Shown here piece by piece: positions 31,060 to 35,281 of a stretch of DNA of 64,000 bases (positions are counted from its first letter, which is position 1; every line of letters begins with the position of its first letter). The notes under the pieces are model-generated. The model did not search any database. It had not been told where the DNA came from and was given only the letters and a program-made list of their open reading frames with translations. Both the position numbers and the translations under genes were made by a program. The stretch is from Leucobacter exalbidus (GTDB taxonomy: Bacteria > Actinomycetota > Actinomycetes > Actinomycetales > Microbacteriaceae), in contig NZ_JAFIDA010000001.1 of the NCBI RefSeq assembly GCF_017834145.1, positions 1,798,001-1,862,000 of the forward strand. Direction: 5' to 3'.

Positions 31060-32166
31060 CTACTGCACTTCGTCGCGTGCGCCCGCCACCAACCGGTCGA
31101 TGGTCTGCTGCGCACTCGCGAGCGCCACGGCCGACTCCTCGGGGCGGTTCAAATACCCGTGCGTGGTGCCCGCCTGCGTGTACTCCAGCACCCGCACCCC
31201 GGCCACCGCGAGCTGCTCGGCAAACTGCTCCCCCGACGCCCGCAGGTCGTCAATATCGGCGTTCACGATCACCGTGGGCGGCAAAAGTGCGAGACGGGGC
31301 GCCGCAATCTCGCCCGCGACGAGCTCGCTTTCGGCGGCTTCTGCGTCGCTCACCTCACCAATGTGGGTGGCGTACATGGTCGAGATTCGATCCGGATCAA
31401 AGCGCAGCCCCTCCCGCAGCGTCGCCGTCGCGCGCGCAATCGCGGCATCGGGCCGCTGGGTGCGGTGCAGCGTGGGGTATTCGAGCATCAGGGCCGCGGC
31501 CGCGGTGCCGTCGCCCGCGAGGGCGGCATCGGCACGGTCGAGGGCGGCGAGGGTGGCGAGATGGGCCCCGGCGCTGGCTCCGCCGATGAGCAGCGGGGCC
31601 GATTCGGTGCGCGCTACCCACGAGGCGACCGCGGCGACGTCGTTTGCGGGGGCGGGGGCCTTCACGGTGTCGCTCGCTAGGACGTAGTCGACCGAGTAGA
31701 CGCGCACGCCGGCGGCGGCGAACTGGCGGGCGGCCCAGTCGGCCTCGGCCATGTCGAGCCCGCCGTGAATGAAGGATCCGCCGTGAGCCCACACGAGCAC
31801 GGCCCAGGGTTCGGTGGTGGCGGCTGTCGCCGGTGCCGGGTCGTAGCGGCGCACCGGAACCTCGGCGGAACCCACCCGGTTGATGCCGCTCGCAGCCGCG
31901 GCACCAGCATCTTGGTTGCTCGGCTTCGACGACGAAACCTGGTTCGCAGGGCCAGGCACCACGAGATTCGTCACGGTGACCGCCGAGGCATCGGAGCCAG
32001 TAGCGTCGTGAACTCCTGTCGCACCAGTCGCACCGCTCAGGCTCGTTGTCGGCTGGGCGGCCGCCGTGCCGCGGGCGTCACCGCGCCACAGCACTGCCAC
32101 GAGGCAGGCGGCGAGCGCCACGCACCCCACAATTACACCGATCAGGGGCCATCGTCGTATGCTCAC
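31060..32166 (-). CDS. Membrane-anchored or lipoprotein alpha/beta hydrolase, HSL-like
   Basis: This 368-aa protein begins with a basic residue pair and a hydrophobic stretch ending ALAAC, so Cys21 could be a lipobox cysteine; otherwise it is a membrane anchor. A threonine/serine-rich linker follows. The hydrolase domain has the oxyanion motif HGGSFIHGG, the nucleophile Ser in GGASAGAHLA, Asp in NADIDDLR and His in GTTHGYL. This set is typical of hormone-sensitive-lipase-type esterases. The GTG start at 32166 lies 6 bases after TAGAAT. Confidence 0.85.
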   Translation of the reverse strand: MSIRRWPLIGVIVGCVALAACLVAVLWRGDARGTAAAQPTTSLSGATGATGVHDATGSDASAVTVTNLVVPGPANQVSSSKPSNQDAGAAAASGINRVGSAEVPVRRYDPAPATAATTEPWAVLVWAHGGSFIHGGLDMAEADWAARQFAAAGVRVYSVDYVLASDTVKAPAPANDVAAVASWVARTESAPLLIGGASAGAHLATLAALDRADAALAGDGTAAAALMLEYPTLHRTQRPDAAIARATATLREGLRFDPDRISTMYATHIGEVSDAEAAESELVAGEIAAPRLALLPPTVIVNADIDDLRASGEQFAEQLAVAGVRVLEYTQAGTTHGYLNRPEESAVALASAQQTIDRLVAGARDEVQ

Positions 32167-32172
32167 ACGCTG

Positions 32173-32178
32173 ATTCTA
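32173..32178 (-). promoter_or_regulatory. -10 hexamer TAGAAT, leaderless start
   Basis: TAGAAT (five of six to consensus) ends 6 bases before the GTG at 32166 on the minus strand. Confidence 0.6.
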
Positions 32179-32405
32179 TGCGCGGTTGGTCGTACCCCTG
32201 GCGAAGTACACAAGTTGCGAGTCATAATTGGGTTCATGCTGACAGGAGCTCAAACGCAGTTCATTCATGGGGTTAGGAGCATCCATCGCTACGGCAGGCG
32301 GAACAATATGACCATGAGACATGAGATTGTCGAGAATGTTAGACATCCGTTTATAAACCGAATGAAAAGTTAACCTCTACTGGCACGCTTCAGTAATCAC
32401 GACAG

Positions 32406-33362
32406 TTAATGTGCGCTCTTCTCTAAGAGGTTCTTGACATGATTACCTACTGCATAGGCCAGTTTGACGGGAACAGCGTTTCCAATCTGCCGACCTTGAA
32501 TGGTCTTGGGCCCTTGTAATATCCAGGAGTCTGGAAAAGTCTGGATTCGTGCAGCTTCTCTGACCGTCAGCTGCCTAGGAAGCGTTGGATGAATTGGTGG
32601 ATGAAATCCAGCTAAGTGATTGCCATTCGGCCCGTACCCACCACCTGCTCGAATCGTAACCGATGGCTTATTGGGATTTAGCCTCGACCGCCGATAATTC
32701 GGGTCCTCCTCCCCTGCTCCCAGCTTCTTCCAGCGTTCAACCACGTGTTTAGCATGCTTGTTCGCGACATGGTTCAGTTCTGGCTTGTCATCCCAACTCT
32801 CTAAATCTCCGATGGCGTCCCAGACAGTTTTCGGCGGTAAGCCCACAATTGGGCTGGGCAATGATGCCCCTCCCCCCATTAGCCCCACTACGATTAACCG
32901 TTTCCGGGCCTGCGGAACATCGAACTCAGCTGCGTTAAGAACACCCATCGAGAATTCGTATCCCATTTCACTCAGTGCGGACATAATTCCGCTCAGGTGA
33001 TCATCATTTTTACGATGAGTCAGCGCGCTAACGTTCTCGAGCACAATCGCTCGAGGCTTAACCTCTCTGACAATTCGCATATATTCAACCCATAAAAAGT
33101 TACGCGGATCGTCAGGGTTTCCTCTGCCTGCGGAGCTAAATCCTTGGCAAGGTGGGCCGCCTACGACAGCATCCACACCTGCATAGGGAGACGCATCAAA
33201 ATCCCGAATATCACCGCAAACCACATTCCATTTAGGACGATTAAATGAGAGGGTTTCGCAAGCGATGGGATCGTGGTCTAGGCATACAGCGGGTTCCCAT
33301 CCGGCGAGCTCAAACCCTAGGTCCAAGCCGCCGCCACCACTAAAAAGAGAAACGTATCGCAT
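32406..33362 (-). CDS. DNA (cytosine-5) methyltransferase of a type II R-M system
   Basis: This 318-aa enzyme has all main m5C methyltransferase motifs: I (LFSGGGGLDLGFELAGW), IV with the catalytic cysteine (GGPPCQGFS), VI (VLENVSAL), VIII (QARKRLIVVG), IX (RAGGGYGPNG region) and X (IGNAVPVKLAYAVG). The target-recognition domain lies between VIII and IX, about residues 170-230, and is short. It follows the endonuclease gene on the same strand by 31 bases and protects the host. The base composition is lower in GC than its neighbours. Confidence 0.92.
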   Translation of the reverse strand: MRYVSLFSGGGGLDLGFELAGWEPAVCLDHDPIACETLSFNRPKWNVVCGDIRDFDASPYAGVDAVVGGPPCQGFSSAGRGNPDDPRNFLWVEYMRIVREVKPRAIVLENVSALTHRKNDDHLSGIMSALSEMGYEFSMGVLNAAEFDVPQARKRLIVVGLMGGGASLPSPIVGLPPKTVWDAIGDLESWDDKPELNHVANKHAKHVVERWKKLGAGEEDPNYRRSRLNPNKPSVTIRAGGGYGPNGNHLAGFHPPIHPTLPRQLTVREAARIQTFPDSWILQGPKTIQGRQIGNAVPVKLAYAVGNHVKNLLEKSAH

Positions 33363-33393
33363 CCCACAAGACTACCTGCGACAGCAGACAGTG

Positions 33394-34320
33394 TTAGCTT
33401 AGCGCCGCATTAATGGCGTCCTCATACGCCCCCATCGGAGGCAAATTCGTTACTCCGACAAAGGCTTGAGCTACCTGAACCACACTCGTTGTAAGACGCC
33501 CGGTCTGCAGCAAGCTCGCAGGTTGACCGGGAATCACGTTTTCCCAATCGGGGTCGTAAGACAAGAACGTAACTGCGCCAGGAGCCAATGGGTATTCAGG
33601 AAGTTCGTTTCCTTCGCCAAGAAGGCGCTTCGCGATTCGCTCAAAAACCGGCTTAGGAGTCACAAAGAAGAGGCCACCTTTACATAACTTCTCCCGCTGC
33701 AACAGATTACCTTTGTAAATCACCTGCGGCAAGATGCGCTTATTCACATTCTCCCAGTTAAAGGCCGCATCACTTTTCTTTATTTCTCGACCGTTCTGCA
33801 GCCCATCGATTGAGGCCCGATAGTTCCCTGTCGTATCAATCGTTTGCACTTCAACAGCCACAAACTCGGCAAGGCCCGTCGGAGTAACTACCGCCAAAAT
33901 CCAGTCCACAAAGTAGGAACCCGAGCCGCCTCTCTGAGGTAAGCGCAGCTCACCACCCCATTTTTTTCCGAATACCCCAATTACGGGGCTCCCCCTCCGG
34001 ATCGCCTCTGACAGCGCGGTTCGCCCCGGGGTCAGCACCCACCCATCGGTAAATCCAAACTCCCACTTATCGCCGAAAGCGATCGCAGCGATATCTCGAA
34101 GAATTTTCCAGTCGTCGCCATACAACCGATTGGGGCAGCAAACCACCGGAGCTCGCGTGGTTTGCTTCAGCGCGCATACGCCTGCGACCAAACCATCCTG
34201 AAACACTTTCTCGCACGAATCATCTATGAAAGGGCATCGTTGATTCGATGCGGCAGACGTAGCTTCCACGCTAGTGTCTGCAGCGCTGTACCCAAACCAA
34301 TCGGTAATTGTCACGGCCAT
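33394..34320 (-). CDS. NotI-family type II restriction endonuclease
   Basis: This 308-aa protein matches NotI in two regions. The N-terminal region has four cysteines in the NotI spacing style: Cys29 in RCPF, Cys36, Cys49 in GVC and Cys62 in CPNR; in NotI such cysteines bind an iron atom. The catalytic core has GGELRLPQ, Asp139 in YFVDWILAVV, and Glu157 and Gln159 in VEVQT, matching Asp160, Glu182 and Gln184 of NotI. NotI is longer (383 aa) and cuts GCGGCCGC; the target here is unknown. It heads the operon with the methyltransferase. Confidence 0.85.
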   Translation of the reverse strand: MAVTITDWFGYSAADTSVEATSAASNQRCPFIDDSCEKVFQDGLVAGVCALKQTTRAPVVCCPNRLYGDDWKILRDIAAIAFGDKWEFGFTDGWVLTPGRTALSEAIRRGSPVIGVFGKKWGGELRLPQRGGSGSYFVDWILAVVTPTGLAEFVAVEVQTIDTTGNYRASIDGLQNGREIKKSDAAFNWENVNKRILPQVIYKGNLLQREKLCKGGLFFVTPKPVFERIAKRLLGEGNELPEYPLAPGAVTFLSYDPDWENVIPGQPASLLQTGRLTTSVVQVAQAFVGVTNLPPMGAYEDAINAALS

Positions 34321-34408
34321 GGCCCCATACTGTCACGCTCGAGGGGATTCAGCTATTCCGCATTAGCGCCGCATCCTCTAAACACTGGCGCCGCACACCT
34401 CGACCCGC

Positions 34409-34414
34409 CACAAT
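34409..34414 (+). promoter_or_regulatory. -10-like CACAAT before the lysophospholipase gene
   Basis: CACAAT ends 6 bases before the ATG at 34421. It is weaker than the other leaderless -10 sites. Confidence 0.3.
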
Positions 34415-34420
34415 AGGCCC

Positions 34421-35281
34421 ATGACACCCGCCTACACCGAGTTCACGTACACCGATGCATTGGACGTCGAGATCACCGCCTACGAGTGGCGGGCCGAAGA
34501 TCCTGTTGCGATTGTGCAGATCTCGCACGGCATCGGCGAGCACGCGAAGCGTTACGACGCCTTTGCGCAGTTCCTCACGAAGAACGGGTTCACCGTTTAT
34601 GCCGACGATCACCGCGGCCACGGCGCCACCGGCCTTGCCCAGCACGACGGCGATCTCACGAAGCTGGGGCGCCTCGGCGAGGGTGGCCTCGCCGCCACCG
34701 AGAACGCTATTTTGCAGCTCACCGCGATCATTCGTGAGCGTAACCCCGGCCTCTCCGTCGTCATGTTTGCCCACTCGTGGGGGTCGCTCATGGCCCAGCG
34801 TATTCTTAATTCGCACCCGCGTGCGTGGGATGCGCTCGTGCTCTCGGGGTCTGCCCTGCGCACGTTCCGCCACATGGAGAGCGGCAATCTCAACGCGAAG
34901 TGGGCCGGCCCCGACGCCAACGGGTTTGAGTGGCTCAGCCGCGACGAGGCCGAGGTCGCGAAGTACATCGCCGACCCGCTGTGTTTCGAGGCCGATATTC
35001 TGCGGCTCTTCGGTGTTGCCGACGGGCTGCGACTCTTCGGCCGCCCGGTCGCTGGCCTCGCCCCCGAGATGCCGATCTTGATCATTTCGGGTGCCGAAGA
35101 TCCGATCGCCCGCGGCGACAGCTTGCCGCTGCTCGCTGAGGCCTTTCGCAAGCGCGGAGTCCAAGACGTCGCCCTCAAAACCTACCCGGGCGCGCGGCAC
35201 GAGACACTCAATGAAACCAATCGCGACCAGGTGTTCGTGGATCTCTCGACCTGGATGCTCGAGCAGGTTTCGCCGAACTAG
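34421..35281 (+). CDS. Alpha/beta hydrolase, lysophospholipase/monoacylglycerol lipase-like
   Basis: This 286-aa Hydrolase_4 protein has the oxyanion region ISHGIGEHAKRYDAFA, the DDHRGHGAT segment, nucleophile Ser in MFAHSWGSLMAQ (Ala replaces the usual Gly of GxSxG), Asp in ISGAEDPI and His in GARHETLNE. This set points to a monoglyceride lipase or lysophospholipase. There is no signal peptide, so it acts in the cytoplasm. No strong ribosome site is seen. It is the first core-like gene after the R-M island. Confidence 0.88.
   Translation: MTPAYTEFTYTDALDVEITAYEWRAEDPVAIVQISHGIGEHAKRYDAFAQFLTKNGFTVYADDHRGHGATGLAQHDGDLTKLGRLGEGGLAATENAILQLTAIIRERNPGLSVVMFAHSWGSLMAQRILNSHPRAWDALVLSGSALRTFRHMESGNLNAKWAGPDANGFEWLSRDEAEVAKYIADPLCFEADILRLFGVADGLRLFGRPVAGLAPEMPILIISGAEDPIARGDSLPLLAEAFRKRGVQDVALKTYPGARHETLNETNRDQVFVDLSTWMLEQVSPN

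Follow-up and report, generated by a model that had tools for sequence, protein, structure and literature searches.

An imported NotI-family restriction-modification gene pair in Leucobacter exalbidus and a predicted CGGCCG recognition site

The window, a stretch of 64,000 nucleotides from the Leucobacter exalbidus genome, contains a gene pair that, by homology at the level of sequence, is a real, imported, and apparently intact NotI-family Type II restriction-modification system. We think it likely that the system is complete, that it was acquired horizontally, and that it cuts at a palindrome with a GGCC core, CGGCCG being the best candidate, with the methyltransferase providing protection. 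The endonuclease gene (33394..34320, minus strand, 308 amino acids) comes first and is followed on the same strand, after a gap of 31 bp, by a gene for a DNA (cytosine-5) methyltransferase of a compact type, here called lineage A (32406..33362, 318 amino acids). From the spacing and shared strand we infer that the two genes form one operon. A scan of promoters and terminators gave four promoter-like sites against 1.7 expected and no terminator-like sites. The endonuclease would probably be homodimeric, would bind metal through a Cys4 fold, and would use an active site of the PD-(D/E)xK kind in its D-E-x-Q form to cleave unmodified DNA at its GGCC-core palindrome, which is more probably the hexamer than the NotI octamer. 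The downstream methyltransferase would add a C5 methyl group to a cytosine within the endonuclease's site, protecting the host.

Kinship with NotI had been proposed by a sequence-only reading of the window on the basis of four cysteines and three D-E-Q residues, and it is borne out by comparison with known proteins. NotI (PDB 3bvq/3c25) is the only significant solved relative of the endonuclease (E 1.2e-7, phmmer, single sequence), and a profile of 22 relatives compared with solved structures returns NotI at E 2.2e-12 and, besides it, a single row at E 0.86. Cys29, Cys36, Cys49, and Cys62, as well as Asp139, Glu157, and Gln159, are present in the window protein and invariant in 22 of 22 aligned sequences; in the phmmer alignment the cysteines lie opposite NotI cysteines, and D139, E157, and Q159 opposite NotI D160, E182, and Q184 (positions by our own count). 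The four cysteines thus form a putative metal site and the other three residues a putative PD-(D/E)xQ active site. For NotI itself, passages in the literature describe a requirement for iron in the Cys4 motif and an active site in which Q replaces K (PMC4081073), and a mono-iron, rubredoxin-like Cys4 centre (PMC4176176).

The family name is less informative than it appears. The Pfam NotI model (PF12183) matches the endonuclease just above its cut-off (23.6 bits against 22) and matches all 22 members of the relative set A1 at E 0.01 or better; the PADLOC REase_II model also matches (E 2.1e-31), and an NCBIfam search with the endonuclease gave no match. A 376-aa NotI-like protein from another actinobacterium (L004), 23-25% identical to the window endonuclease, aligns to NotI over positions 13-369 at E 1.9e-71 and has no PF12183 match at E 0.01. 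Since this protein is far closer to NotI, the Pfam name appears to mark the short branch more than NotI, and the link to NotI rests on the phmmer and profile matches. Similarity to NotI of Nocardia otitidis-caviarum covers the cysteines, the D-E-x-Q residues, and the N-terminal to middle sequence, but the alignment stops at query position 174 (single sequence) or profile position 226, leaving the C-terminal part of NotI unaligned, and NotI is longer (383 residues against 308) and reads eight bases where the window enzyme probably reads six. Membership in NotI proper, an octamer cutter of ~380 amino acids, was considered and set aside, as full-length similarity including the C-terminal part was not found. 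On these alignments, the window endonuclease is a member of a shorter (~300 amino acids) branch of the NotI family.

The adjoining m5C methyltransferase, also proposed from the letters alone, is confirmed by a match to PF00145 (E 2.4e-68, 231 bits against a cut-off of 22), the only such match in the host genome. Its closest solved relatives are M.HaeIII (PDB 1dct, 3ubt), similar over the full length (E 1.7e-37 for 1dct, over 1-312), and the cytosine methyltransferase 3g7u (E 2.1e-37); an alignment to M.HhaI is restricted to 1-159. The catalytic motifs of m5C methyltransferases, P70-P71-C72-Q73, E109-N110-V111, and Q151-x-R153-x-R155, are invariant in nine sequences. M.HaeIII recognizes GGCC; its system differs from that of the window in having another partner endonuclease and, probably, another site length. 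It is very improbable that the window system is in decay or has become inactive through loss of cleavage by its endonuclease: broken relatives do exist, but both window genes are intact and carry every residue that is invariant in the branch. The broken relatives are a truncated endonuclease in Salinibacterium (L031:5064-5588), in a 10.8-kb locus that showed no methyltransferase, and, in a genome of the Microbacteriaceae, an endonuclease copy interrupted by a stop (L152:1525-2112).

The pair lies in a low-GC block (32167..34420, approximate ends) inserted between two divergent alpha/beta-hydrolase genes, an Abhydrolase_3 member on the left (31060..32166, minus strand) and a Hydrolase_4 member on the right (34421..35281, plus strand). 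GC content is 0.521 over 32167-34320, compared with 0.632 in 400 kb of the host genome and 0.638 in the window, and only 1 of 844 stretches of the same length is as low (the 844 include stretches over the insert). Third-position GC is 0.56 in the endonuclease gene and 0.48 in the methyltransferase gene, against 0.81-0.86 in seven neighbouring genes, and none of 36 congeners has a methyltransferase homologue at E 1e-40. A block of 52% GC in a 63% GC genome, together with the absence of the methyltransferase from these congeners, indicates import, as the sequence-only reading had held for an A+T-rich block between high-GC genes. The insertion can also be seen in synteny: of 24 congeners searched, 23 have a homologue of the hydrolase on the right, and in 3 of the 23 loci (L046, L048, L050) the left hydrolase is its divergent neighbour at a spacing of 40 bp, compared with 2254 bp in the window. 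In the other loci of the 23, the left hydrolase was not found beside the right one, and L054 holds part of it ~1 kb away, so that the insert-free pair is seen only in congeners of 64-66% protein identity. Examination of the insert ends for terminal repeats revealed nothing convincing, and the 239-bp left spacer has no second copy elsewhere in the genome. An exact 12-bp direct repeat flanks the endonuclease gene (33399-33410 and 34363-34374); as a candidate insert boundary it was rejected, since some exact 12-mer repeat also arises by chance in 35 of 300 shuffled versions of the region, and since the closest related locus, L011, lacks it.

That closest relative, in Microbacterium sp. SYP-A9085, has an endonuclease 71% and a methyltransferase 72% identical to those of the window, in the same gene order with a 35-bp gap. 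It differs in that a convergent Vsr mismatch-endonuclease gene (L011:6918-7544, minus strand; PF03852, 70.3 bits) adjoins it, whereas a search of the window's genome for PF03852 gave no match. Another Microbacteriaceae locus (L003:104-2406) pairs a methyltransferase 75% identical to the window's with an endonuclease ~42% identical; the latter sits on a very long branch, having diverged far faster than its partner, scores 21.7 bits, just below the Pfam cut-off, and has no PDB match.

The branch is mobile, as is seen directly from its carriers: 25 plasmid records (18 predicted conjugative), a Pseudomonas phage, and 8 viral contigs or loci. With 22 genome loci besides, the plasmid and viral numbers do not bear out the earlier suggestion that NotI-like enzymes are few, but the frequency per genome is low (at E 1e-3, 4 of 394 genomes in the class, counting the host's own; at E 1e-20, 6 of 398 in the family). 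A Nesterenkonia locus (L012) and an IMG/VR contig (L005) are an identical 8.9 kb, which places one compact-type system within a predicted provirus. The endonucleases of the plasmids and of phage vB_Pae_U8 are 48-52% identical to that of the window over the full length. Annotated as 'NotI family restriction endonuclease' and 'DNA cytosine methyltransferase', these pairs likewise have an adjoining m5C methyltransferase, but one of another lineage (~30% identity, ~400 aa) that is positioned ahead of the endonuclease. One DNA search of E. coli, with a Cronobacter plasmid gene as query, found no relatives, and a full-text literature search combining NotI family and methyltransferase found no paper.

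Two methyltransferase lineages thus accompany one endonuclease branch. A linked m5C methyltransferase is present in 30 of 31 related loci tabled, the exception being the truncated Salinibacterium locus, and the methyltransferase tree splits them at 100/100 into types A and B. The compact type A comprises the window's and those of L003, L011, L012 (= L005), L002, L020, and L153, which are 57-75% identical to it; type B proteins are ~400 aa long and 28-33% identical to it, and the one member tested has DNMT1 as its nearest solved structure, compared with M.HaeIII for the window's. A search with the window methyltransferase brought up three compact-type enzymes besides itself (G204, G200, G1153), and each of them adjoins a NotI-family endonuclease. 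The endonuclease comes first in 5 of 7 type A systems and the methyltransferase in 2, while the methyltransferase comes first in 21 of the 23 type B systems tabled (L004 excluded), with L030 and L032 convergent; Microbacteriaceae genomes contain B-type systems too (L149-L151).

Endonucleases with a type A partner are 53-57% (L002, L012, L153), 71% (L011), and 49% (L020) identical to the window's. In a tree built without L003, L004, L005, L030, L031, and L032, forcing the five A-paired endonucleases into a single clade lowers the log-likelihood by 40.4 and is rejected (p-AU 0.00077). The rejection hangs on L020, a metagenome contig of Betaproteobacterial origin, as the other four A-paired endonucleases, all actinobacterial, group together with weak support (71/26). 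When all rows except L031 are used, and long branches blur the tree through the inclusion of L003, L004, L030, and L032, three label changes are needed, of which the starred branches force only one. By way of L020, the rejection of one clade supports partner exchange within the branch, whatever its number and direction.

Evidence on the recognition site comes from the system genes themselves. Expected counts were obtained by shuffling codons among synonymous positions within each gene, keeping the protein and its codon usage, and the sets exclude L005 (a duplicate of part of L012), L032 (a near copy of L030), L031 (truncated), and L004 (NotI proper). In a first set of 28 systems (56 genes), CGGCCG is seen 8 times against 29.7 expected, ranking first of 63 palindromes in depletion with 0 of 400 shuffles as low, in sequences that are related and hence not independent. 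Among the 16 NGGCCN words it alone is strongly depleted (8 against 29.6); TGGCCA (7 against 15.1), GGGCCC (8 against 14.3), and TGGCCC (11 against 19.6) are mildly low, and CGGCCA (18 against 14.9) and TGGCCG (21 against 23.7) are not depleted, which argues against YGGCCR. With four systems added (32 in all) the count is 9 against 33.3, and 1 against 13.3 in the endonuclease genes only. In an unbiased scan of a thinned set (28 systems, 56 genes; L006, L007, L010, and L024 removed as well), CGGCCG ranks first of 2077 hexamer classes (7 seen, 29.0 expected), and it ranks first of 1902 in the endonuclease genes alone (1 against 11.1).

Control genes from the same loci (ORFs of at least 450 bases, picked by length and uncurated) are themselves somewhat short of CGGCCG, with 124 against 157.9 and, in the hexamer scan, a ratio of 0.69 and rank 24 of 2070, which counts against the argument. 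In a matched comparison they hold 89 against 129.9, and none of 5000 matched control subsets came down to the ratio of the restriction-modification genes (24 systems). In such genes beside the systems, the most depleted hexamer is CCGCGG (51 against 107.7). Six viral systems examined later contain CGGCCG once against 4.74 expected, a count matched or undercut by 33 of 1000 shuffles; this set includes two near copies of systems already counted (89-100% identity), and without these the count is 0 against ~2.1. Depletion of a word in a system's own genes is an uncalibrated signal, from which we judge that the branch probably reads CGGCCG. The sequence-only reading had expected a long, rare site, and this depletion points instead to six bases; a 400-kb sample of the host genome contains 458 copies of CGGCCG, so an enzyme reading it would be no rare cutter there.

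The depletion stems from the type B systems and so does not directly support the site of the window member. In 25 type B systems CGGCCG is seen 0 times against 10.9 in endonuclease genes and 5 times against 16.6 in methyltransferase genes; in 7 type A systems the figures are 1 against 2.4 and 3 against 3.3, a sum of 4 against 5.7 that says nothing either way on CGGCCG, with the window itself contributing 0 against 0.62. Nor does the host genome help: palindrome avoidance in 400 kb each of the host and three congeners shows no CGGCCG footprint (0.90 against 0.83, 0.90, and 0.88), a result of little use, given that a methylated host has no need to shun the word. CGGCCG is our prediction for the window member, with the chances somewhat in its favour.

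Two other specificities have to be weighed. The window enzyme could be a NotI isoschizomer cutting GCGGCCGC, a word that does recur in the window, as had been noticed, although its 31 occurrences exceed the 'several' then claimed. NotI is the solved relative, the window's subgroup lacks CGGCCG depletion, and CciNI of Curtobacterium citreum, a GCGGCCGC cutter, comes from a species of the Microbacteriaceae, where related systems occur (L011). We nevertheless consider an isoschizomer unlikely: NotI has 383 amino acids against ~300 in the branch, the NotI-like L004 is only distantly similar, and in the 32 systems CGGCCG is depleted beyond the octamer GCGGCCGC (8 against 30.5), while in L004, a single system, it is undepleted (6 against 5.07), as for an octamer cutter. 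Alternatively, the compact methyltransferase may have brought a changed specificity, so that the subgroup reads another GC-rich site. The deep split between the methyltransferase lineages and the lack of CGGCCG depletion in the compact-type systems are in keeping with this, but the expected counts are too small to discriminate and the compact-type endonucleases, at 49-71% identity to the window's, are about as near to it as the others; we regard a changed site as more doubtful still than an isoschizomer. The predicted site, CGGCCG, is also that of EagI, XmaIII, and Eco52I (C^GGCCG), whose source genera (Pantoea agglomerans, Xanthomonas) match plasmid hosts of the branch; the likeness lies in the predicted site and the genera. 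A passage of PMC4722110 lists CGGCCG for M.EagI and draws attention to GGCC as the HaeIII core.

As a restriction-modification system, the window pair is ordinary. Its wider bearing lies in the branch. Part of an endonuclease family of commercial importance gains a testable site, and two methyltransferase lineages on one endonuclease branch provide an example from nature of partner exchange, where survival would require matched specificities. A tentative reading, to which we give somewhat less than an even chance, is that the branch kept its word while the compact M.HaeIII-like type took the place of its methyltransferase, at least twice in association, and that the genes of these mobile systems record the site by avoiding it. 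If true, the sites of uncharacterised Type II systems could be predicted cheaply, from sequence alone, by looking for the word in which a system's genes are depleted.
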